Assembly (NCBI GenBank): GCA_020847395.1 | Contig: JADLCD010000072.1 | Span: 1-52,886 of the forward strand | From: Chitinophagaceae bacterium | Lineage (GTDB): Bacteria; Bacteroidota; Bacteroidia; Chitinophagales; Chitinophagaceae | DNA: 52,886 bases | Reading direction: 5' to 3' | Shown here: piece after piece, positions 31,970 through 44,618 of the stretch | How positions within the stretch are numbered: position 1 is the stretch's first letter | Layout: every line of letters begins with the position of its first letter | The notes under the pieces: model-generated | Databases searched by the model: none | What the model was told of the DNA's origin: nothing | What the model saw: only the letters and a program-made list of their open reading frames with translations | Position numbers and translations under genes: made by a program

Positions 31970-33079
31970 ATGAATACACGTCGTGATTTTCTGCAAAAAA
32001 TATCTATGGGATTTGGTGCGGCCGCTTTGTCGCCATTAATGAGCCGTGCATCCCTGCTATCAACCCATACAATTTCCGGCCGGAAATTAAATGTTGCGTT
32101 AATGGGTTTAGGCGGTTATGCAGGAATAGTGGCAAGAGCAATGAAAGAATGCCAGATGGCGACTTTAACCGGCATAATAACCGGCACACCTTCTAAAATA
32201 GAAAAATGGAAAAAGGATTATAACATAGCAGATAAGAATATATACAATTATGACAACCTGCAGCAGATTGCTAAAAACCCGGATATACATGTGGTGTATA
32301 TCACTACGCCAAACTCCCTGCACCACAAACATGTATTACAGGTTGCCACTACCGGCAAACATGTTATTTGCGAAAAACCGTTGGCAGATACTGCGCAACA
32401 GGCAAGAGAAATGATTGATGCCTGTAAAAAAGCCGGCGTTAAATTTTATGTAGGCTACAGGCTGCACTTTCAGCCGCATACCCGCGAAATAATAAGGATG
32501 AGGCAAGCCGGTGAATTTGGTAAAATAATGCATGTAAATAATTATATGGGATTTAAAATTGGCGACCCAACGCAATGGCGATTGAGAAAAGCGCTGGCAG
32601 GTGGTGGTGCAATGATGGATGTGGGCGTATACGCACTTAATGGCGCCCGCTATGCAACCGGTGAAGAGCCTGTTTGGGTTACCGCACAGGAATCGAAAAC
32701 CGACCCGGTAAAGTTTGCAGAGGTTGATGAGACCATTACCTTTCAACTGGGTTTTCCCGGCGGGGCAATTGCCGAGTGTGGTACCTCATATAACTTCAAC
32801 AACTTTGAAAGACTATACATGATTGGGGAGAAGGGCTTTGCCGAACTAAACCCGGCCTTTGGCTATGGCCCTATAAAAGGAAGAACGCATTTGGGCGAAT
32901 TACAAATTCAGGATGTAACACACCAGGCGGCGCAAATGGACGGGCTTGCGGATTGTATATTGAATGGTAAACCCGACCCCAATATGACTGGTGAAGAAGG
33001 TTTGAAAGATATGATTGTAATTGACGCGGTATATGAATCCATAAGAAAGAACGGGCAGAGGATTCTGATTAATCAATAA
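31970..33079 (+). CDS. Tat-exported Gfo/Idh/MocA-family oxidoreductase
   Basis: This 369-residue protein has a twin-arginine leader (NTRRDFLQKISMGFGAAAL). An NAD(P)-binding Rossmann domain (KLNVALMGLGGYAGIVAR) follows, with the family motif CEKPLADT, and a substrate domain with GGGAMMDVGVYALNGARYATG. This is the glucose-fructose oxidoreductase branch, which carries its cofactor bound and is often sent out by Tat. It stands alone; its downstream neighbours are small proteins. It may act on periplasmic sugars, as in the 3-keto-glycoside cluster at 36.7-44 kb, but that link is only suggestive. Confidence 0.88.
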   Translation: MNTRRDFLQKISMGFGAAALSPLMSRASLLSTHTISGRKLNVALMGLGGYAGIVARAMKECQMATLTGIITGTPSKIEKWKKDYNIADKNIYNYDNLQQIAKNPDIHVVYITTPNSLHHKHVLQVATTGKHVICEKPLADTAQQAREMIDACKKAGVKFYVGYRLHFQPHTREIIRMRQAGEFGKIMHVNNYMGFKIGDPTQWRLRKALAGGGAMMDVGVYALNGARYATGEEPVWVTAQESKTDPVKFAEVDETITFQLGFPGGAIAECGTSYNFNNFERLYMIGEKGFAELNPAFGYGPIKGRTHLGELQIQDVTHQAAQMDGLADCILNGKPDPNMTGEEGLKDMIVIDAVYESIRKNGQRILINQ

Positions 33080-35043: not shown

Positions 35044-36498
35044 TTACTTCTTTATTTGCTTTGTTTTTTTGGTAGTGGCGGCTCCTGATTTTACGTAAAG
35101 ATCAGCAGTAACTTTTCCACCGGAAAGTTTAATATTTTTAATGGACACCTTAGTATCTAATGCGCCATAACTTTTACTATTTGGCTTTGAAGAGCGGCTG
35201 AATGTTTTCTTTTTTGATGTACCGGGCCAAACATCACCTGCATCACCACCATTTGTACCTTTTTCCAGTTGCTGTTTACCATCTGCCTGTAAAAGCGCTA
35301 CTTTATAATGTTGTTCATTGCTGTTATCTTCTACTGAATCATCTATATGATATATAAGCAAACCTTCCGCAGGAATATATTTATCATAATTTTTTTTCAT
35401 TCTATGCTCTGCAAGAAAATATTCATTGCCTGGTCCTCCATCTTTCCATAGCCTGTATACTTTTTTTCCTTTCTTAACATCATCTATAACCACAGCTTTA
35501 CTATTTGAGCCCTGGTTAATAGTGGTTACCCAGTTTTGCTGCACCTTGCACCATGCGCAGGGATGCGCAGGTGTAAGCCCGTTATTATTCCAGCTTCCTC
35601 CTGCCATAAGGCACCAGTTTCCAACACCCTCACTGGTGTAATCAATATCATATAAATCGGGGAAGCCAAAAAGCAGGTGACCAAGTTCATGTGCACATAC
35701 GCCCAGTTCACAATCTTCCGGCACGGTAAGGTACGCATATATATGAGTGCCGTCAGCATTGTATACATCGGGCAATACCCATTTATGACTCCAGATATCA
35801 TTAGCGCTACCTGTAACTTCGGCTCCGGGGCCGGCATGTATCACAACAAATGCATCCACATATCCATCGTTATCATTATCATACGTGCTAAAATTTATTT
35901 TGGAATTTGCGGCTTTAGCTGCATCCTGTGCCAGCGTGCGGGCATTTGGTGTAGCGTTGCCTGTGCCGCTATCGCCGTGTGCATATTCACTTAATTTCTT
36001 TGGCATTCTGTAAGGCCCAACTACCTGCCCGGTAATAGATACCAGTCCGTTGGTAACTTCTTTATAATATTCTTTTACACTGCCGGTTGCTATTACACCT
36101 TCACTAAAAAACAAATCTTCAAACCGCTTCTTAGTTTGCGTCATAGGCTTATCGCTGAAGTCAACCAGTATCACTGCAACTTTAAGTGTGCCTTGTAAAG
36201 GTGCCCTGGAAGCAGAGCGTGTGCGAATGGTATTTGCCGATGTACCTAAAGCAAACACGCTTCCGGGTTTTAATAAACCATCATTAAAGCCTAATCTTGA
36301 TTTGGCTAATGGCTTAATGAGATTGCTGAGCACTGAAGTTCCCAGGCTTCTTTTCACCTGCTTTAAGTCTGCCTTTAATTTCTTTTTTAACTCTGGGCTT
36401 GGTGCTATCATACACCGTTCTCCATCATTGCTTTGTGCAGCCGCATTAATAATGTTGATGTAGTTGCTTAATAATTCCGGCATTTGTTGCTTTTTCAT
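35044..36498 (-). CDS. M6-family metalloprotease without a visible signal peptide
   Basis: This 484-residue protein has the zinc site CAHELGHLLFGFPDLYD (HExxH at 270-274) and the M6 signature LKVAVILVDFSDKP (about 105-118). A probable Ca-binding DNDNDGYVDAF (208-218) and a C-terminal beta-rich part (about 420-475) complete it. M6 enzymes (immune inhibitor A type) are normally secreted. Here the N-terminus (MKKQQMPELLSNYINIINAA) has no hydrophobic stretch, and no T9SS sorting domain is seen at the C-terminus. It may be cytosolic, exported by another route, or have an unrecognised start. It is a single gene with both flanks open. Confidence 0.85.
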   Translation of the reverse strand: MKKQQMPELLSNYINIINAAAQSNDGERCMIAPSPELKKKLKADLKQVKRSLGTSVLSNLIKPLAKSRLGFNDGLLKPGSVFALGTSANTIRTRSASRAPLQGTLKVAVILVDFSDKPMTQTKKRFEDLFFSEGVIATGSVKEYYKEVTNGLVSITGQVVGPYRMPKKLSEYAHGDSGTGNATPNARTLAQDAAKAANSKINFSTYDNDNDGYVDAFVVIHAGPGAEVTGSANDIWSHKWVLPDVYNADGTHIYAYLTVPEDCELGVCAHELGHLLFGFPDLYDIDYTSEGVGNWCLMAGGSWNNNGLTPAHPCAWCKVQQNWVTTINQGSNSKAVVIDDVKKGKKVYRLWKDGGPGNEYFLAEHRMKKNYDKYIPAEGLLIYHIDDSVEDNSNEQHYKVALLQADGKQQLEKGTNGGDAGDVWPGTSKKKTFSRSSKPNSKSYGALDTKVSIKNIKLSGGKVTADLYVKSGAATTKKTKQIKK

Positions 36499-36716
36499 TC
36501 TGTATTATTTTAATAACTAACAATCAGGTTAAGGAATTGAGGGGAAGATTAAGTTACAAAGTGTACAGATGGTCAGGATAAATACGAGTGCTTTCAGAAT
36601 AATTAAATGTACTGTTTATAAGTGGTTATCGCAATACCCATTTAGTGTGACAGGCAAAACATTTTTCTTTTTAACTATTGTATAACCAAAGAGAGGATTT
36701 TGTAGTTAAAAAAGAA

Positions 36717-36737
36717 AAGGCTGCCTTCGGCAGCCCT
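36717..36737 (-). terminator. Intrinsic terminator of the DUF1080 operon
   Basis: GGCTGCC (36719-36725) and GGCAGCC (36729-36735) form a 7-bp stem with a 3-base loop. On the minus strand it is followed by TTTTCTTTTTT. It lies about 30 bases after the stop at 36764 and ends the minus-strand run that starts at 40339. Confidence 0.78.
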
Positions 36738-36763
36738 TCCATATTATTAGAAAACTATTTTGG

Positions 36764-37480
36764 TTACAGCTTCCTGATCTTAATATTTTTATACCATACT
36801 TCATTACCATGATCCTGCAGCACAATATGTCCCTGCTTTGCTTTTGCAAAGGCAGCCATATTTTTAAACTTGCTGCCCGCTACTAATGTATTCCATGCTT
36901 CATCTCCTATTGTAGTTGACACCACGTTAGCCCCATTCTGCCATAATTCCAGCTTGCCATTTTTAAGTTTAATGGTAATGCTGTTCCACTCACCGGCAGG
37001 TTTTACATTTTCGGGCTTGCTTGTAATAAGGTCATACAAATCGCCGGCACGGTGCTTAATAATTTTAGCATCGGGATGCCCGTTATTATCCAATACCTGC
37101 ATTTCAGGTCCTGTTAAATAAGAGCGTTCATATTCAGGGGATTCATTTACCAGGAAGATAACACCGCTATTGCCGTTTGGTGATATTTTCCAATCAAGTT
37201 TTAATTCAAAATCGCCGTATTCATCGGCGGTTGTTGCATCACCTCCGGCTTCTTCACCTTCGTGTTGCCCCAGGTGCAATGTGCCATCCTGAACATTCCA
37301 TGCTTCTCCTAATGCTGTTTTACCATAAGAGTGCCAGCCATTGGTGGTGGCGCCATCAAAAAGTAATTTCCATCCGGCTTTTTTTTCTGTGGCACTCAAT
37401 TCGTTGTCTTTTGTTTGAGCATTTACATTGCTTAATGCTAACACACTAAGTGCAAAACCGCTCAATATTATTTTTTTCAT
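36764..37480 (-). CDS. DUF1080 protein, probable 3-keto-glycoside hydrolase
   Basis: This 238-residue protein has a Sec signal (ILSGFALSVLALSNVNAQ) and a single concanavalin/LamG-like beta-sandwich. WKLLFDGATTNGWHSYGK, WNVQDGTLHL, DWKISPNGNSGVIFLVNESP and GPEMQVLDNNGHPDAK are DUF1080 marks. Studied members cleave 3-keto-disaccharides by elimination after the C3 hydroxyl is oxidised. The setting supports this: cytochrome c, a TIM-barrel protein and Gfo/Idh/MocA upstream, and the GMC dehydrogenase pair in the divergent arm. It is the last gene of its operon, ended by the hairpin at 36717-36737. Confidence 0.9.
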   Translation of the reverse strand: MKKIILSGFALSVLALSNVNAQTKDNELSATEKKAGWKLLFDGATTNGWHSYGKTALGEAWNVQDGTLHLGQHEGEEAGGDATTADEYGDFELKLDWKISPNGNSGVIFLVNESPEYERSYLTGPEMQVLDNNGHPDAKIIKHRAGDLYDLITSKPENVKPAGEWNSITIKLKNGKLELWQNGANVVSTTIGDEAWNTLVAGSKFKNMAAFAKAKQGHIVLQDHGNEVWYKNIKIRKL

Positions 37481-37486
37481 GCTGTT

Positions 37487-37924
37487 TTATTTGATTGTAA
37501 GAATATATTTTACCATTGCTTCGCAATCTTCCTCAGATAAAGCCGGGTGAGGTGCCATTGGTATTTCTCCCCAAACACCAGATCCGCCATCCTTTATTTT
37601 TTTTGCAAGCTTTGGGATGTCTTTTTCCTTATATTTTTTTGCAACTTCTGCATATGCCGGCCCAACCAGTTTTGTTTTTTCCTGGTGGCATGCAAGGCAA
37701 TCAGCGCCCGCAATTAACGCTTTACCATCTTTTACAGGAGGTGGTGGCGGGGTAGCTACAGTTACTGCGCCGGTTGCTGTATCAACCACAAAAGCTTTTT
37801 TAGCTTTAGCTGCGCCAATCTGCGGGTTAACGCTTTCACTTATAGGTTTCTTAGGTTCTGAAGGATTACTTCCACATGCATAACATAATGCTGCTAAAAT
37901 CAAGGCCGATGAAATTTTCTTCAT
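37487..37924 (-). CDS. Mono-heme c-type cytochrome lipoprotein
   Basis: This 145-residue protein has a lipoprotein signal ending LCYAC (Cys17), a Pro-rich linker (about 55-65), and one heme site CLACH (76-80) with Met123 in GEIPMAPHPALS as the sixth ligand. It is a class I cytochrome. It overlaps none of its neighbours and sits 6 bases upstream of the DUF1080 gene. In this cluster it is the natural electron acceptor for the GMC dehydrogenase encoded on the other arm, as cytochromes are for gluconate and glucoside-3 dehydrogenases. Confidence 0.9.
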   Translation of the reverse strand: MKKISSALILAALCYACGSNPSEPKKPISESVNPQIGAAKAKKAFVVDTATGAVTVATPPPPPVKDGKALIAGADCLACHQEKTKLVGPAYAEVAKKYKEKDIPKLAKKIKDGGSGVWGEIPMAPHPALSEEDCEAMVKYILTIK

Positions 37925-37989
37925 TACTTACTTTATTTAAATTTGTCATACTAATGTCAAAAAAACGGCCATAAATATCCGAAGAAAAA

Positions 37990-39045
37990 CTACTCAAGTC
38001 CCAAAACCTTGCGATTAAATTTTTCATCGCTGCCGGTTCCGGCAAAATCATCAAAGGCATGTTCTGTAACCCGGATGATATGATTTTTAATAAATGGCGC
38101 TCCTTCTGCCGCTCCCTGTTCCGGATGTTTAATGGCACACTCCCATTCCAGCACAGCCCATCCTTTATAATCATATGCTGCCAGTTTACTGAAAATAGAT
38201 TTGAAGTCAACCTGCCCATCGCCCAATGAACGGAAACGACCTGCACGTTCTACCCAACCCTGGTAACCGCCATATACGCCTTGTTTACCGGTTGGGTTAA
38301 ACTCCGCGTCTTTTACATGAAACATGCGGATGCGCTCATGATAGTTGTCAATATAATCAAGATAGTTTAAGCATTGCAATACAAAATGGCTTGGATCATA
38401 TAACAGGCATGCCCGTGGATGATTATTCACTTTCTCCAAAAACATTTCATAGGTAATACCATCATGCAAATCTTCGCCGGGATGTATTTCGTAGCAGAGG
38501 TCAATACCCTGTGCATCAAATTCATTTAATATAGGTAACCAGCGTTTTGCCAATTCTGTAAAACCTGTTTCAACCAAGCCCGCAGGGCGTTGCGGCCAGG
38601 GATATACCGTATGCCATAATAATGCACCACTGAATGTGGCATGCGCATTCAAGCCAAGATTTTTAGATGCTTTGGCCGCATTTTTTAAATGCTGCACAGC
38701 CCATTCCGTACGCGCTTTGGGGTTATTATGATATTGAGCGGGAGCAAACCCATCAAACAATGCATCATAAGCCGGGTGAACCGCCACCAACTGGCCGATA
38801 ATATGAGAAGCAAGTTCTGTTATTTGTAATCCCGCTTCATTTACCACGCCCTTTATTTCATCGGCGTATGTTTTGCTTTCAGCAGCCTTATCTATATCAA
38901 TAATATTGGTAGCCCATGTAGGAATCTGCACACCCACATAACCCAAGCCTGCAGCCCATTCGCAAATAGATTTTAAACTATTAAAAGGTGCTTTATCACC
39001 TAAAAACTGGGCGAGGAAAATTCCAGGACCCTGGACATTTGTCAT
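37990..39045 (-). CDS. Sugar phosphate isomerase/epimerase-like TIM-barrel protein
   Basis: This 351-residue cytosolic protein is of the xylose isomerase-like TIM barrel family (AP endonuclease 2 type). CYEIHPGEDLHDG, CLLYDPSHFVLQ, RIRMFHVKDAEF and AVLEWECAIKHP carry the metal-binding Glu, Asp, His and Glu residues. Members act on keto-sugars as isomerases, epimerases or dehydratases. It lies between the Gfo/Idh/MocA gene and the cytochrome gene, and could act on 3-keto-glycosides or their products. No signal is seen, unlike the TIM-barrel protein at 40579. Confidence 0.88.
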   Translation of the reverse strand: MTNVQGPGIFLAQFLGDKAPFNSLKSICEWAAGLGYVGVQIPTWATNIIDIDKAAESKTYADEIKGVVNEAGLQITELASHIIGQLVAVHPAYDALFDGFAPAQYHNNPKARTEWAVQHLKNAAKASKNLGLNAHATFSGALLWHTVYPWPQRPAGLVETGFTELAKRWLPILNEFDAQGIDLCYEIHPGEDLHDGITYEMFLEKVNNHPRACLLYDPSHFVLQCLNYLDYIDNYHERIRMFHVKDAEFNPTGKQGVYGGYQGWVERAGRFRSLGDGQVDFKSIFSKLAAYDYKGWAVLEWECAIKHPEQGAAEGAPFIKNHIIRVTEHAFDDFAGTGSDEKFNRKVLGLE

Positions 39046-39088
39046 GACTATAAGATTTAAAGAAGATTATTAATGAGGTAGAGGGTTT

Positions 39089-39188
39089 AAGGTGGAAGGT
39101 GTAGGGGTTAAGAAATACAAATAAATTTCTTATTTGGTAGAGACGATGCATGCATCGTCTCTACACCCTACGCCTTATACCTTACACC
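39089..39188. repeat. Palindrome flanked by inverted AAGGTGGAAGGTGTAGGG arms
   Basis: The spacer between the two minus-strand genes contains a perfect 28-bp palindrome at 39137-39164 (GTAGAGACGATGCA and its complement). Left of it, 39089-39106 is the exact reverse complement of the 18-mer at 16843-16860. Right of it, 39165-39188 (ACCCTACGCCTTATACC...) is an imperfect complement of the left arm, about 19 of 23 matching. The whole spacer could therefore fold as one long cruciform or hairpin, and its right arm covers the stop codon of the Gfo/Idh/MocA gene. Confidence 0.85.
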
Positions 39189-40339
39189 GTAAATTCTGTC
39201 CATTTTTCATTGCTGGCACCGCTCTTTACTACATTATCAATAAACGCCATGCCTCTTATACCATCTGCCGCTGTTGGAAAATCCAGCATTTCAATGGTAG
39301 GCGTTGTGCCGTCTAATTTAGCAGAAAGCGTGAGCGCGAAATTGCGATAGATATTACCAAACGCTTCAAGATATCCCTCCGGGTGACCTGCCGGAACGCG
39401 GGTATTATGTTTAGCAAAATTGCCAAGATAACCGCTGCCTGTTCTGTATATCTCTGTTGGTTTATCAAGCCATTTCAGCAATAATGTATTGGGTTCCTGC
39501 TGCGCCCAGTCTAACCCACCTTTATCTCCATAAATTCTTATTCTGAGGGCATTTTCTTCTCCTGCTGCAATTTGTGAAGCGATAAGTACACCGGCGGCGC
39601 CGTTGTCAAATTTCAATAATACGTTTCCGTCATCATCCAGTGCACGACCAGGAACCATAATATTCAAATCGGCGCAGAGCTTTGTTATGCGTGAACCTGT
39701 AATATATTCTGCAAGATGTGCGGCATGTGTACCAATATCTCCCATGCAACCAGACTTACCTGATTTTGAAGGGTCTGTTCTCCATGCAGCCTGTGCATTA
39801 CCTTCTCTTTCGGTCATGCGGGTTAACCACCCCTGCGGATATTCCACGATTACTTTTTTTATTTTACCCAGCGCGCCGTCTTTCACCATTTGTCTTGCCT
39901 GCTTCACCATCGGGTAGCCGGAATAGGTGTGCGTTAATGCAAGAATAAGTCCTGTTTCTTCTACTTTTTTCTGTAGTTTTTTTGCTTCATCCAAAGTAAA
40001 AGTAATAGGCTTTTCCACTACCACATTAAAGCCATTGTCGAGCGCCATATATGCCGGATCAAAATGTACAAAGTTTGGCGTAACAATGGTTAAAAAATCC
40101 ATCCGCTCACCTTCAGGAAGCTTTGCCTCTGCTTTTATCATTTCCTGGTAAGTAGTATAGGTCCTGCTTTCCGGAAGAAATAATGATTTTGCAGAGTCTA
40201 TCGCGATATCCTTGTTGTGGCTCAACGCACCACAAGCTAATTCAATCAGGCCATCCATGTTGGCAGCAATACGATGAACGGCACCAATGAAGGCATCTTT
40301 ACCTCCACCTACCATTCCCATTTTTAATTTTCTGTTCAT
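39182..40339 (-). CDS. Cytosolic Gfo/Idh/MocA-family oxidoreductase
   Basis: This 385-residue protein has an N-terminal Rossmann domain (KLKMGMVGGGKDAFIGAVHR), the VVEKPITFTLDEA motif and the GKSGCMGDIGTHAAHLAEYITG substrate segment. It has no signal. It is a dehydrogenase/reductase of sugars or inositols that uses NAD(P). As the first gene of the minus arm it likely interconverts 3-keto and hydroxyl sugars after uptake. Its terminal stop overlaps the cruciform repeat at 39165-39188. A 239-base region separates it from the divergent arm. Confidence 0.92.
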   Translation of the reverse strand: MNRKLKMGMVGGGKDAFIGAVHRIAANMDGLIELACGALSHNKDIAIDSAKSLFLPESRTYTTYQEMIKAEAKLPEGERMDFLTIVTPNFVHFDPAYMALDNGFNVVVEKPITFTLDEAKKLQKKVEETGLILALTHTYSGYPMVKQARQMVKDGALGKIKKVIVEYPQGWLTRMTEREGNAQAAWRTDPSKSGKSGCMGDIGTHAAHLAEYITGSRITKLCADLNIMVPGRALDDDGNVLLKFDNGAAGVLIASQIAAGEENALRIRIYGDKGGLDWAQQEPNTLLLKWLDKPTEIYRTGSGYLGNFAKHNTRVPAGHPEGYLEAFGNIYRNFALTLSAKLDGTTPTIEMLDFPTAADGIRGMAFIDNVVKSGASNEKWTEFTV

Positions 40340-40578
40340 GAAAAAAATATTAACGTGATGAAAAATCAGAGAGGGATTAAAAATAAAACATTTACGTTTT
40401 ACAGCAATTTCTTTTATGTGAAATAATTTTTGTTTATATACACCATAAAATATTTTATAGATGAAAAATACTTTTATAACCTTATATTTTCATCTTAGCT
40501 AAAAAAATGTCTTTCTAACAATTAAAAAGAATTTTATTTATAAAACATTTCCTACCTTAACTGCCTGTTTATAAGATT

Positions 40579-41484
40579 ATGTCCACTTCATCATCTAATC
40601 CACGCAGGCGTGCCATAAAAAATATTATTGCCGGGTCTCTTGCCATAGGCGCCGCACCGGCATTTGCCGGTTCCATATCTTCCAAACGTGGGGAAGAAAG
40701 TAATTATAATATGAAAGGAAATATCAATCACTCCGTATGCCGCTGGTGTTATGGTAGCATACCGTTGGAAGAATTTTGCGCATCCGTAAAAAAAACAGGC
40801 ATCAATGCCATTGACCTTGTTGGGCCAAAAGATTGGCCTGTTTTGCAGAAGTATGGCATCTATTCTTCTATGTGCAATGGCGCTGAAATAAACCTGGAAG
40901 ATGGCTGGAATCATACGGAATTTCATCCGCAGTTAATAAAAAACTATAGTGAGATGATTCCGCTTGTTGCCAAAGCAGGTTACAAGCAGCTCATTTGCTT
41001 CAGCGGCAGCAGGCGGCAGCTTGATAATGAAACAGGTTGGAAAAATTGTGTGGATGGATTAAAACAGGTAATAGGTATTGCTGAAAAGCATAAAGTAACG
41101 CTTGTGATGGAGCTGCTCAACAGCAAAATTGATCATAAGGATTACCAATGCGACAGAACAGCATGGGGCGTGGAATTAGTCAAACGTTTAGGATCAGAAA
41201 ACTTTAAATTACTCTACGATATATATCACATGCAGATTGATGAAGGTGATGTGATAAGAACAATTAAAGAATATCATCCTTATATTTCTCACTATCATAC
41301 CGGCGGAGTTCCGGGCAGAAGAGAGATCAACGAAACACAGGAATTATATTATCCTGCCATAATGAAAGCAATAGTTGATCTTGGCTTTAAAGGATATGTA
41401 GCGCAGGAATTTATCCCTACACCTAAAGATGCTAAAGGACAGATTGCATCTTTAGCTGCAGCCGTAAAAATTTGTGATGTGTAA
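40579..41484 (+). CDS. Tat-exported hydroxypyruvate isomerase-like TIM-barrel protein
   Basis: This 301-residue protein has a twin-arginine-like leader (NPRRRAIKNIIAGSLAIGAAPAFA) and then the hydroxypyruvate isomerase-like TIM barrel: HSVCRWCYGSIPLEEFCASVKKTGINAIDLVGPKDW, VMELLNSKIDHKDYQCD, LLYDIYHMQIDEGDV and YHTGGVPGRREINE with metal-binding Glu, Asp and His. Secreted Tat-borne members of this group are not hydroxypyruvate enzymes in all likelihood; a role in keto-sugar isomerisation in the periplasm is suggested by its partners. It is the first gene of the plus arm, 60 bases ahead of the GMC gene. Confidence 0.85.
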   Translation: MSTSSSNPRRRAIKNIIAGSLAIGAAPAFAGSISSKRGEESNYNMKGNINHSVCRWCYGSIPLEEFCASVKKTGINAIDLVGPKDWPVLQKYGIYSSMCNGAEINLEDGWNHTEFHPQLIKNYSEMIPLVAKAGYKQLICFSGSRRQLDNETGWKNCVDGLKQVIGIAEKHKVTLVMELLNSKIDHKDYQCDRTAWGVELVKRLGSENFKLLYDIYHMQIDEGDVIRTIKEYHPYISHYHTGGVPGRREINETQELYYPAIMKAIVDLGFKGYVAQEFIPTPKDAKGQIASLAAAVKICDV

Positions 41485-41544
41485 AATTTTCTCAAAACCA
41501 TTTTTATTCATATAACCGGATTGCTAATTTGTAAACTATAATGT

Positions 41545-43320
41545 ATGCCAGATAACGTTTATGATGCCATTGTAATTGGATCAGGGATTAGTGGTGGTTG
41601 GGCCGCAAAAGAGCTGACCGAAAAAGGGTTAAAGGTGATAATGCTTGAGCGTGGCAGAAATATTGAGCACGTAAAAGATTATGTAAATGCCAATAAAGAC
41701 CCCTGGGATTTTCCTCACCGCGGCGGACGAACGGAGCAAATGATAAAGGACTATCCCGTATTGAAAAGAGATTACCCTCTTAACGAAACCAATCTCGATT
41801 ACTGGTGTAGCGATAAGGATAGCCCTTACACAGAAATCAAACGATTCGACTGGTTCCGCGGATATCATGTAGGCGGCCGTTCATTAATGTGGGGCAGGCA
41901 AAGCTATCGCTTAAGTGATTTGGATTTAGAAGCAAACGCAAAAGAAGGTATCGCCATTGATTGGCCGGTTCGCTATAAAGAAATTGCTCCATGGTATGAT
42001 CATGTTGAAAGATTTGCAGGCATCAGCGGATCAAAAGAAGGCTTACCGGAACTACCAGACGGTCAGTTTCTGCCACCAATGGAAATGACTTGTGTTGAAA
42101 AAGATGTTGCCGCCCGTATAAAAGAAAAGTTCGGCGGCAAAAGAAAAATGATTATCGGTCGCACGGCTAATATTACCGTTCCTTTTACCGACCAGGGCAG
42201 GCAAAATTGCCAGTTTCGTAATAAATGCTGGCTGGGCTGCCCGTATGGCGCATATTTCAGCACACAATCTTCCACATTGCCTGCTGCAATGAAAACGGGA
42301 AAGCTTACTGTTCGCCCGTGGAGCATTGTTACAAAAATTCTATACGATAAAGATAAAAAAAGGGCCACTGGAGTGGAAATACTCGATGGTGAAAACAATA
42401 AAACATATACATACACTGCAAAAATTATTTTCCTCAATGCATCTGCGCTTAACAGTGCATGGGTATTGATGAATTCTGCAACGGATATATGGCCTGACGG
42501 GCTTGGCAGCAGCAGTGGTGAATTAGGCCATAATGTTATGGACCATCACCTCGGCGTGGGCGCCAATGGAATGGTGGAAGGCTATGAAGATAAATATTAT
42601 TTTGGTCGCCGCGCCAATGGCATATACATTCCACGTTACAGGAATTTCTTTAGCGACAAGAGGGATTATCTCCGTGGCTTTGGCTACCAGGGCGGTGGAA
42701 GAAGGGGTAGTTACAACCGGAGTGCCGAAGAAATATCCATAGGTGCAGATTTGAAAAATGCGTTAGTTGAGCCAGGTGCATGGACAATGGATATAGGAGG
42801 ATTTGGCGAAACATTGCCTTATCACGAAAACAGGGTATATATAGATAAAAATACTTACGGTGATAAAATGGAGCAATTTAATGATCCCATTACAGGTAAG
42901 GATTTGGGTATGCGCCCTGTGCCGGATAAAAATGGTAAACAGCGCGTAGATAAGTGGGGATTACCTGTACTTGCCATGGATGTGGAGTATAAAGAAAATG
43001 AAAAGAAAATGCGCAAGGATATGTTGAATGACGCGATTGAAATGCTGGAAGCTGCAGGTGTAAAAAACGTGCAGGGCCGCGATGGTGATGGCACTTTAGG
43101 AAGGGGCATTCATGAAATGGGAACGGCACGCATGGGTCATGATCCTAAAACATCTGTACTGAATAAATTTAACCAGGTGTGGGATGCGCCAAATGTATTT
43201 GTAACAGACGGGGCATTCATGACTTCAGCAAGTTGTGTAAACCCATCACTTACCTATATGGCGTTTACGGCAAGAGCTGCAGACCATGCGGTGAGTGAGC
43301 TGAAAAAAGGTAATCTTTAA
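41545..43320 (+). CDS. GMC-family FAD oxidoreductase (glucoside/gluconate dehydrogenase type)
   Basis: This 591-residue flavoprotein has the FAD-binding start YDAIVIGSGISGGWAAKEL...VIMLERG (about 5-32) and the segments RSLMWGRQSYRLSDLD and NQCRNKCWLGCPYGAYFST-like cysteine-rich loop near residue 230. GMC C-terminal motifs are HEMGTARMGHDPKTS and ASCVNPSLTYMAFTARAADH. It matches the large subunit of membrane-bound gluconate, glucoside-3 and fructose dehydrogenases. It has no signal of its own; the next gene carries a Tat leader, so the pair may be exported together. It probably oxidises C3 of glycosides and hands electrons to the cytochrome encoded at 37487-37924. Confidence 0.93.
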   Translation: MPDNVYDAIVIGSGISGGWAAKELTEKGLKVIMLERGRNIEHVKDYVNANKDPWDFPHRGGRTEQMIKDYPVLKRDYPLNETNLDYWCSDKDSPYTEIKRFDWFRGYHVGGRSLMWGRQSYRLSDLDLEANAKEGIAIDWPVRYKEIAPWYDHVERFAGISGSKEGLPELPDGQFLPPMEMTCVEKDVAARIKEKFGGKRKMIIGRTANITVPFTDQGRQNCQFRNKCWLGCPYGAYFSTQSSTLPAAMKTGKLTVRPWSIVTKILYDKDKKRATGVEILDGENNKTYTYTAKIIFLNASALNSAWVLMNSATDIWPDGLGSSSGELGHNVMDHHLGVGANGMVEGYEDKYYFGRRANGIYIPRYRNFFSDKRDYLRGFGYQGGGRRGSYNRSAEEISIGADLKNALVEPGAWTMDIGGFGETLPYHENRVYIDKNTYGDKMEQFNDPITGKDLGMRPVPDKNGKQRVDKWGLPVLAMDVEYKENEKKMRKDMLNDAIEMLEAAGVKNVQGRDGDGTLGRGIHEMGTARMGHDPKTSVLNKFNQVWDAPNVFVTDGAFMTSASCVNPSLTYMAFTARAADHAVSELKKGNL

Positions 43321-43363
43321 TCCAGTATATAAATATTATTGACAATTCTAAAATTTGAATTAT

Positions 43364-43957
43364 ATGAACAGACGTGATGCCTTGTCGAGAGTAGCACTGA
43401 TACTTGGAGGAACAGTTGTAGGGGCCAACGCTTTTTTAGAAGGTTGCAAACCGGCTGATAAAAAAACCGGAGACGAAGCTAAAGACGGCAAACCCGTTGC
43501 TTTATTTGCAGCTACAGATTCGGCTTACCTTGATGAAATAGCTGAAACTATTATTCCTGCCACAGATACGCCCGGCGCCAAAGCTGCCAAGGTTGGTGCT
43601 TTTATGACGGTGATGGTAACAGACTGTTATCCTGAAGCGGATCAAAAAGTATTTACAGAAGGAATGAAAAAGCTGGACGAAGCCAGTAAGAAAAAGAGTG
43701 GCAAATTATTTATGGAAAGCAGCCCTGAAGAGCGCAAAGCTTTGCTGATAGAAATTGATAAAGAAGCCAAAGATTATATGGCTGCCAAAAAGAAAGATGA
43801 CCCGAAACACTATTTCAGAATGATGAAAGAGCTTACCCTGCTGGGTTATTTCACTTCTGAACCAGGAGCAACACAAGCATTGCGCTATGTTGCTGTTCCC
43901 GGCAAATATGAAGGCTGTATAGCTTACAAAAAAGGCGATAGAGCCTGGGCTACTTAG
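43364..43957 (+). CDS. Gluconate 2-dehydrogenase subunit 3-like Tat protein
   Basis: This 197-residue protein has a twin-arginine leader with a lipobox-like end (MNRRDALSRVALILGGTVV...EGCKP). A helical subunit-3 domain follows (AYLDEIAETIIPATDTPGAKAAKVG, YFRMMKELTLLGYFTSEPGATQALRYVAVPGKYEG). In characterised dehydrogenases this small subunit stabilises the GMC large subunit and lends it a Tat signal. The open frame begins at a TTG (43355); the ATG at 43364 is preferred. The gene is 43 bases after the GMC gene and the perfect terminator at 43989-44024 ends the arm. Confidence 0.93.
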   Translation: MNRRDALSRVALILGGTVVGANAFLEGCKPADKKTGDEAKDGKPVALFAATDSAYLDEIAETIIPATDTPGAKAAKVGAFMTVMVTDCYPEADQKVFTEGMKKLDEASKKKSGKLFMESSPEERKALLIEIDKEAKDYMAAKKKDDPKHYFRMMKELTLLGYFTSEPGATQALRYVAVPGKYEGCIAYKKGDRAWAT

Positions 43958-44168: not shown

Positions 44169-44618
44169 ATGAGCCATCACCTGCTATTAATTATACATCT
44201 TATTTGTGCCAGTATATGGGTAGGTGGTCATTTATTTATTGCTATACGGATTCTTCCAAAAGCTTTAAAGCAAAAGAATCCTGATATTATTCTTCATTTT
44301 GAAAAAGAATATGAACCTATTGGCATAGCGGCATTACTACTATTGGTAATAACAGGCATTTGGATGACTTTACAATTTGGCATAGCAGTAAACAGGTGGT
44401 TTACATTTTCATCGCCGATAGAACGCGTTACTTCAACTAAATTATTATTGCTTTTGGGTACTGTTATATTTGCTGTGAGCGCTCAAACCAGGGTACTACC
44501 ACAACTCAAAAAATCTTCCGGAAAAATACCTGAAATGGCAGCACATATTATAGCTGTAACCGCGATTGGGGTAGCCATGCTTGTGTTAGGTTCTTTTGCC
44601 AGGTATGGCGGTATATAA
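44169..44618 (+). CDS. CopD-like small membrane protein
   Basis: This 149-residue protein has four membrane helices (about 4-27, 51-70, 91-108 and 122-145). IIHLICASIWVGGHLFIA with His9 and His20 is the CopD-type (copper resistance D / YhhN-like) opening, and later RVLPQLKKSSGKIPE is a cytosolic loop. CopD proteins are tied to copper or heme-type electron handling in the membrane. It begins about 145 bases beyond the GMC terminator, so it is a separate transcript. A copper role would match the MbnP pair at 20-22 kb but is not shown. Confidence 0.75.
   Translation: MSHHLLLIIHLICASIWVGGHLFIAIRILPKALKQKNPDIILHFEKEYEPIGIAALLLLVITGIWMTLQFGIAVNRWFTFSSPIERVTSTKLLLLLGTVIFAVSAQTRVLPQLKKSSGKIPEMAAHIIAVTAIGVAMLVLGSFARYGGI

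Follow-up and report, generated by a model that had tools for sequence, protein, structure and literature searches.

The window analysed here is a 52,886-nucleotide stretch of DNA from a Chitinophagaceae bacterium (assembly GCA_020847395.1, contig JADLCD010000072.1), and it carries seven genes in two divergent arms that probably form an oxidative system for glycoside breakdown. The minus arm encodes, in order, a Gfo/Idh/MocA oxidoreductase (Gfo), a TIM barrel protein, a cytochrome c and a DUF1080 protein. The plus arm encodes a second TIM barrel protein bearing a twin-arginine translocation (Tat) signal, a GMC flavoprotein and a Gluconate_2-dh3 protein (subunit 3). An earlier account drawn from the letters alone, the sequence-only reading, had described two arms diverging around 40340-40578; all seven open reading frames lie where it placed them, and Pfam supplies their families (Table 1). 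Both TIM barrels match PF01261, with expectation values (E) of 6.5e-36 for the minus-arm protein and 1.7e-21 for the plus-arm protein. By inspection of the sequences, the DUF1080 protein has a Sec-like signal, the cytochrome a lipobox-like cysteine, and the exported TIM barrel and subunit 3 a twin arginine (RR), and no signal peptide was seen in the GMC protein, the minus-arm TIM barrel or Gfo. Because homologues of subunit 3 begin with MNRRDAL or alike, its start was moved from TTG at 43355 to the likelier ATG at 43364.

Table 1. Features of the divergent cluster and its borders, with positions in the window and roles as proposed here.
Feature	Position	Strand	Basis
Terminator-like stem-loop 3′ of the minus arm	36714..36740	-	12-pair stem + T run, pattern match only
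DUF1080 / 3-keto-disaccharide hydrolase family protein, N-terminal signal peptide; proposed 3-keto-glycoside cleaver	36764..37480	-	PF06439, E 4.3e-50
Single-haem lipoprotein cytochrome c, one CxxCH; proposed electron acceptor	37487..37924	-	PF00034, E 4e-10
Cytoplasmic TIM barrel, probable 2-hydroxy-3-keto-glucal hydratase orthologue	37990..39045	-	phmmer vs 8ro4, E 1.5e-172
Cytoplasmic Gfo/Idh/MocA oxidoreductase; proposed 3-keto-glucose reductase	39182..40339	-	PF01408/PF22725
Divergent intergenic region, 21% GC, two copies of ATAAAACATTT	40340..40578	.	Sequence
Tat-exported TIM barrel, ketose 3-epimerase / hydroxypyruvate isomerase fold	40579..41484	+	PF01261, RR motif
GMC flavoprotein, glycoside 3-dehydrogenase (GlycDH/FAD-GO) subfamily, no own signal	41545..43320	+	GMC_oxred_N, GMC_oxred_C
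Gluconate_2-dh3 subunit (subunit 3), Tat signal + lipobox-like cysteine; proposed GMC export carrier	43355..43957	+	PF13618, E 1.8e-39

The oxidising enzyme can be placed with some precision. By its sequence, the GMC flavoprotein belongs to the glycoside 3-dehydrogenase (FAD-GO/GlycDH) subfamily. It is 65.5% identical to a relative on an Agrobacterium tumefaciens contig (L160); over aligned residues the identity is 69.0% to that protein, 70.4% to one from Stenotrophomonas (L146), 68.0% to one from Sphingobacterium (L162) and 71.2% to the GMC protein of an Indibacter locus (L141). The first three are relatives of tested enzymes and come from strains other than those tested. FAD-GO of Rhizobium GIN611 oxidises the 3-hydroxyl of glycosides and is inactive as H493F or H493A, and the enzymes cloned from A. 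tumefaciens C58, S. maltophilia and S. multivorum likewise deglycosylate by oxidation (PMC4650693). H523 of the window protein aligns at position 493 of the L160, L146 and L162 proteins and thus corresponds to catalytic His493. Its C222/C228/C232, matched through an alignment to a related fructose dehydrogenase, correspond to the cysteines of a 3Fe-4S cluster and are invariant in 11 aligned relatives; in the FAD-dependent glucose dehydrogenase (FAD-GDH) the cluster ligands are Cys212/218/222 (PMC6719666).

As in the FAD-GO/GlycDH subfamily, the gene of a small Tat-bearing subunit adjoins that of the GMC protein. The twin arginine is present in 52 of 54 homologues of subunit 3 and in 1 of 120 of the GMC protein, a distribution that fits export of the GMC protein through the Tat signal of its partner. 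The corresponding partner in Rhizobium has been regarded as a possible chaperone for such enzymes (PMC4650693). A lipobox-like cysteine occurs in 40 of the 54 subunit 3 homologues, and a search of the PDB returned no solved relative of this protein. The cytochrome has one CxxCH within 145 residues, kept in 43 of 44 homologues.

The minus-arm TIM barrel, which the sequence-only reading took for an isomerase, is instead a probable 2-hydroxy-3-keto-glucal hydratase. It aligns over residues 2-350 with the solved hydratase 8ro4 (577 bits, 68.1% identity) and is 67.7% identical to the hydratase of L160, itself 94.5% identical to 8ro4. The DUF1080 protein has phmmer matches to 14 distinct PDB sequences, including 8rr2 and 8tda. 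In Caulobacter, a gene of the DUF1080 family close to lacABC plays an important part in the use of lactose (PMC9007349). Gfo is 47.6% identical to its counterpart at the Agrobacterium locus, and its closest solved relatives carry the bare name ‘Oxidoreductase’.

This kind of system is already in print (PMC9007349, PMC10628242). In Agrobacterium, a GlycDH operon has been described that carries out oxidation, elimination, hydration (on preliminary evidence) and reduction; its second isomerase is named AtHYD, a putative hydratase, its Gfo protein is named as the reductase, and PDB entry 8bvk is the eliminase AtOGE (PMC10628242). The A. tumefaciens contig L160 carries a row of genes for LacI, hydratase, Gfo, TIM barrel, GMC protein and subunit 3. 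It corresponds to the published operon, because its TIM barrel matches 8bvk (E 9.8e-159) and its hydratase is so close to 8ro4. The window cluster shares the four-step logic and, besides the three proteins compared above, a subunit 3 at 36.5% identity. However, it has a DUF1080 protein where the operon has AtOGE, it adds the Tat-exported TIM barrel and the lipoprotein cytochrome, and LacI is not among its seven genes. With no OGE-type eliminase in the cluster, we do not file it as a GlycDH/OGE operon.

A second comparison is with the LacABC-DUF1080 clusters. The window cluster brings together GMC, subunit 3 and cytochrome genes, which we take to be the types that make up LacABC, with a DUF1080 gene, and two sugar epimerase-like proteins and a reductase lie nearby. 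The lacABC dehydrogenase is described as having three components; clusters joining it to DUF1080 were published in 2022, similar ones were named in Indibacter alkaliphilus and others, and identity of at least 40% to LacA was the criterion for a LacA-like protein (PMC9007349). Unlike the Caulobacter system, for which one is reported, the window cluster has no linked transporter, a feature that we take as common rather than defining. The L141 locus of I. alkaliphilus LW1 contains all seven genes in the layout of the window, plus a transporter and a further TIM barrel; this genome has at least six further GMC matches, and the published cluster may not be that of L141.

Two other known systems share parts of the cluster. 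The Bacteroides BT2157/BT2158 pathway likewise combines a DUF1080 protein (BT2157) with a glycoside 3-dehydrogenase of the Gfo superfamily, but there the dehydrogenase is the periplasmic BT2158, whereas in the window oxidation is assigned to the GMC protein. We considered and dropped the window Gfo as an exported 3-dehydrogenase of the BT2158/BT2159 type: it lacks a signal, and against BT_2158_fam it reaches 30.7 bits where the cut-off is 750. The FAD-GDH complex (PDB 6a2u, PMC6719666) resembles the window in setting a signal-less GMC protein with 3Fe-4S cysteines beside a Tat-bearing hitchhiker partner. It differs from the window, where subunit 3 has a lipobox-like cysteine and is without a solved relative, the cytochrome has a single haem, and oxidation is expected at C3 rather than at the first hydroxyl.

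The sequence-only reading had suggested surveying whether the seven genes stay together across Chitinophagaceae, and they largely do. Of 147 Chitinophagaceae genomes, 100 have a GMC match at E ≤1e-80, among them that of the window. One best-GMC locus was taken from each of 60 of the 99 other genomes, mostly the more similar ones; the remaining 39, many on short contigs, were left out, and linkage is less known in distant relatives. Presence was scored as a tblastn match anywhere in the locus at an identity of at least 40% for the DUF1080 and GMC proteins, 30% for the cytochrome, 55% for the hydratase, 45% for Gfo and the Tat TIM barrel and 35% for subunit 3. All seven genes occur together in 38 of the 60 loci (36 of the 54 full-length ones), and a core of five (hydratase, Gfo, Tat TIM barrel, GMC protein and subunit 3) in 45 (43 of the 54). 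Neither set occurs in control regions elsewhere in 20 of the same genomes (0/20 for each), where DUF1080, Gfo and Tat-Gfo gave one match apiece, and none of five other GMC or DUF1080 loci in the genome of the window holds the seven-gene set. The grouping of the seven genes exceeds chance.

We also examined named loci, the best 80 of 472 relatives; none titled Caulobacter was among the matches listed. All seven genes were present in 16 of them and the five core genes in 28 (12 and 22, respectively, of the 54 with full flanks), and divergent DUF1080 proteins of these loci fall under the identity threshold. Loci of Hymenobacter, Mucilaginibacter, Pedobacter, Indibacter, Cecembia, Lysobacter, Stenotrophomonas and Alteromonas contain much of the set, and others have the GMC protein with subunit 3, or the GMC protein alone. 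Most of the set also appears in annotated records of plasmids from Hymenobacter, Xanthomonas sacchari and Paracoccus, with no annotated cytochrome on the Paracoccus stretch.

Some family loci are elaborated. Tandem arrays of 4-6 GMC genes occur in 11 of the 60 (L041, L044, L051, L054, L055, L058, L060, L061, L062, L067 and L088), and the window has a single GMC gene. Exactly one subunit 3 gene accompanies the array in 9 of the 11, and none was found within the stretch in the other 2. One Tat partner may serve several GMC dehydrogenases in the array loci.

The plus-arm TIM barrel is the member whose role is least fixed. Its twin arginine is invariant in 44 of 44 aligned homologues and present in 54 of 54 complete ones. 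Glu178, Asp214, His240 and Glu277 are invariant in the same 44-sequence alignment and fit the metal site of ketose 3-epimerases. Among its profile matches are 3ngf, whose deposited name is AP endonuclease family 2, chains of psicose and tagatose 3-epimerases, and 3-keto-D-glucoside 4-epimerase (6wn6, E 1.3e-6). The last of these is YcjR, described as interconverting gulosides and glucosides as an epimerase (title of a work cited in PMC11543891). In a predicted model (mean predicted local distance difference test score 85.3), the best structural match is again 3ngf (template modelling score, TM, 0.71 by query), with 6wn6 at rank 14 (TM 0.67, 16% identity). The fold is common, with 474 chains at E ≤0.001, so its fold neighbours do not settle the reaction. 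Nor does any family assign a function, since the protein falls under every NCBIfam cut-off (92.5 bits where hydroxypyruvate isomerase requires 353, and 64 where psicose epimerase requires 300) and exceeds only that of the broad Pfam PF01261.

The gene is single-copy in the genome of the window, where the next matches are 29% identical. A survey of 198 genomes across the phylum found the exported TIM barrel in 48, the hydratase in 43 and both in 36 (Fisher P 3e-22, uncorrected for kinship), and in 16 of these 36 the two genes lie within 20 kilobases of each other. As a separate observation, a further exported TIM barrel (L096:7387-8259), 24% identical to AtOGE, lies near subunit 3 in 28 of the 60 family relatives at the threshold used; it is not among the cluster genes of the window.

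The sequence establishes the identity of the genes, their signals, conserved residues and linkage; we infer which reactions take place and in what order, how the product is imported, which substrates are used and what the exported TIM barrel does. On this footing, we put at roughly 80% the probability that the seven-gene cluster is an oxidative 3-keto-glycoside system, with C3 oxidation in the periplasm followed by processing in the cytoplasm. The GMC protein, carried out in folded form by means of the Tat signal on subunit 3, would oxidise the C3 hydroxyl of a glycosidic sugar, with electrons passing from FAD to the 3Fe-4S cluster and on to the lipoprotein cytochrome c. The exported DUF1080 protein would then cleave the 3-keto-glycoside, probably by elimination, into aglycone and 2-hydroxy-3-keto-glycal. 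The keto product would enter the cytoplasm, in most relatives through a cluster-encoded major facilitator superfamily (MFS) or nucleoside-permease-like protein, in Paracoccus through an ATP-binding cassette (ABC) transporter, and here through an unlinked one. The cytoplasmic TIM barrel would hydrate the glycal to 3-keto-glucose, which Gfo, as a proposed reductase, would convert to glucose. The exported TIM barrel would act on a periplasmic keto-sugar or keto-glycoside, most likely as an epimerase or isomerase. The scheme of the sequence-only reading, in which glycosides are oxidised, cut by DUF1080 and then reduced or isomerised, holds in outline by homology to tested enzymes; it lacked the hydration step. 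That reading also guessed that the exported TIM barrel is a periplasmic isomerase of 3-keto-sugars, a role that it may have.

Alternative readings were weighed against these data. The DUF1080 protein could release a free 3-keto-sugar by hydrolysis, with the cytoplasmic TIM barrel serving as an isomerase or IolE-like dehydratase on a 3-keto-sugar or inosose. Pfam does name DUF1080 a hydrolase and the barrel does match IolE, but that match is weak (63 bits against a cut-off of 290) and lies far below its score against the solved glycal hydratase, which makes a hydrolytic route rather improbable and suggests that DUF1080 acts by elimination. Far less credible is a dehydrogenase complex for gluconate or another polyol with unrelated neighbours, a reading we reject. 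It draws on the Pfam name of subunit 3, gluconate 2-dehydrogenase subunit 3, and on the nearest PDB entries of the GMC protein, large subunits of fructose and glucose dehydrogenases. Against it stand the 65-70% identity of the GMC protein to relatives of tested glycoside 3-dehydrogenases and the conserved linkage to DUF1080, hydratase and Gfo. The tri-haem cytochrome of the gluconate 2-dehydrogenase/FAD-GDH type is also missing, the window cytochrome having its one CxxCH where the beta subunit of FAD-GDH has three haems (PMC6719666).

For the exported TIM barrel, the alternative to an epimerase or isomerase is a second glycoside eliminase like AtOGE: both are exported TIM barrels within GMC clusters, and the pathway requires a cleaving enzyme. 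An orthologous relationship was rejected, as BLAST against the AtOGE relative of L160 gave no significant match (E 0.035 over 30 residues). Moreover, loci of Xanthomonas and Paracoccus hold the exported TIM barrel together with an AtOGE-like protein (53-56%) and DUF1080, a search at E 1e-10 found no counterpart in the Agrobacterium genome that L160 comes from, and its named profile and fold neighbours, below the top-ranking 3ngf, are psicose and tagatose 3-epimerases and 3-keto-glucoside 4-epimerase. We consider a second eliminase unlikely and favour an epimerase or isomerase role.

Several observations weigh against the oxidative pathway as we have drawn it. Elimination by DUF1080 is read only from the presence of the hydratase, neither TIM barrel of the cluster qualifies as an OGE-type eliminase (one is the probable hydratase, the other has no significant match), and the reductive direction of the Gfo reaction is a proposal. 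Counterparts of the window DUF1080 protein at the Hymenobacter, Xanthomonas and Paracoccus loci share only 22-26% identity with it. In Pedobacter the dehydrogenase has a phenotype and 0 of 10 DUF1080 genes have a lactose phenotype, which the authors ascribe to possible redundancy (PMC9007349). The hydratase family extends beyond the cluster, with 314 plasmid records against 61 for the GMC protein (E 1e-40). The exported TIM barrel, too, exists outside the cluster: among the best 30 of its 49 places in the phylum, the window included, a GMC gene lies within 1.5 kilobases in 10 and a transporter, DUF1080 or cytochrome gene beside it in 5 more, and of 20 loci chosen for lying unlinked or for lacking the hydratase, only 1 has GMC and subunit 3 genes next to it. 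The window GMC protein has a 30-residue insertion at about residues 438-468 that is absent from the other 10 sequences of an 11-sequence alignment. Finally, the three loci examined from this genus, the window cluster, L040 and L042, all lack the transporter that most relatives have between the arms; relatives of the two transporter types elsewhere in the genome are 41% and 51% identical, with no cluster genes beside them in the stretches fetched apart from one Gfo-like match of 22%.

What this analysis offers is a matching of genes to pathway steps for a widespread cluster, the proteins of which bear in the plasmid records examined only such names as GMC oxidoreductase, sugar phosphate isomerase, TIM barrel or DUF1080 protein, and a tie between LacABC/DUF1080-like clusters and the elimination-hydration-reduction chemistry of Agrobacterium. 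PMC9007349 gives the fate of 3-ketogalactose as unknown, a question that becomes testable through the hydratase and the exported TIM barrel. One speculative possibility, which we advance tentatively, is that the exported TIM barrel works as an epimerase on 3-keto-glycosides in the periplasm, after their oxidation and before their cleavage, converting 3-keto-galactosides, for instance, to 3-keto-glucosides, and that one Tat subunit exports up to 5-6 GMC proteins in relatives. If so, varied glycosides would feed one hydratase and one reductase, the fate of 3-ketogalactose in lactose use would be answered, and tandem GMC arrays sharing a Tat subunit would further broaden glycoside intake in those relatives.

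The region between the arms varies among family loci. A transporter gene, encoding an MFS protein, a nucleoside-permease-like protein or both by Pfam, lies between the Tat TIM barrel and Gfo genes in 40 of the 54 full loci; ABC transporter genes take that place in Paracoccus. In 8 of the 54, including L040 and L042, the two genes stand head to head without a queried gene between them. Some loci have other genes between as well, and in L079 the pair is not divergent. In the window, the direct repeat ATAAAACATTT occurs at 40383-40393 and 40540-40550, near both ends of the intergenic region, and AAAACATTT is also found twice in those of L040 and L042, with both places kept; the repeat is a possible regulatory element. 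A 9-base inverted repeat containing GATGAAAA is not claimed, GATGAAAA being absent from the counterpart region of L040 and L042. A scan for sigma-70 promoters was uninformative (20 found against 21.8 expected), and the terminator scan as a whole gave 8 sites against 7.1 in shuffles.

A few further genes of the window and genome deserve mention. Unbroken full-length matches to the window GMC protein were found, among the matches listed, only in G028, G122, G123 and G112. The genome contains 23 matches to DUF1080, of which 21 exceed the cut-off, and 4 to subunit 3, and a second locus (G000:C158, L102) combines DUF1080 (35%), GMC (47%) and subunit 3 (32%) relatives, with no hydratase or Gfo match in that stretch. 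Beyond the minus arm, an M6-type peptidase-like gene (35044-36498) also sits beside the cluster in L040 (77%) and is unmatched in the other 59 family loci; it is probably not part of the cluster. A Tat-bearing Gfo/Idh/MocA protein is encoded about 4 kilobases from the cluster (31970-33079; 197 bits to D-xylose dehydrogenase Gfo6, cut-off 350), and a CopD-like membrane protein (44169-44618) follows the plus arm.

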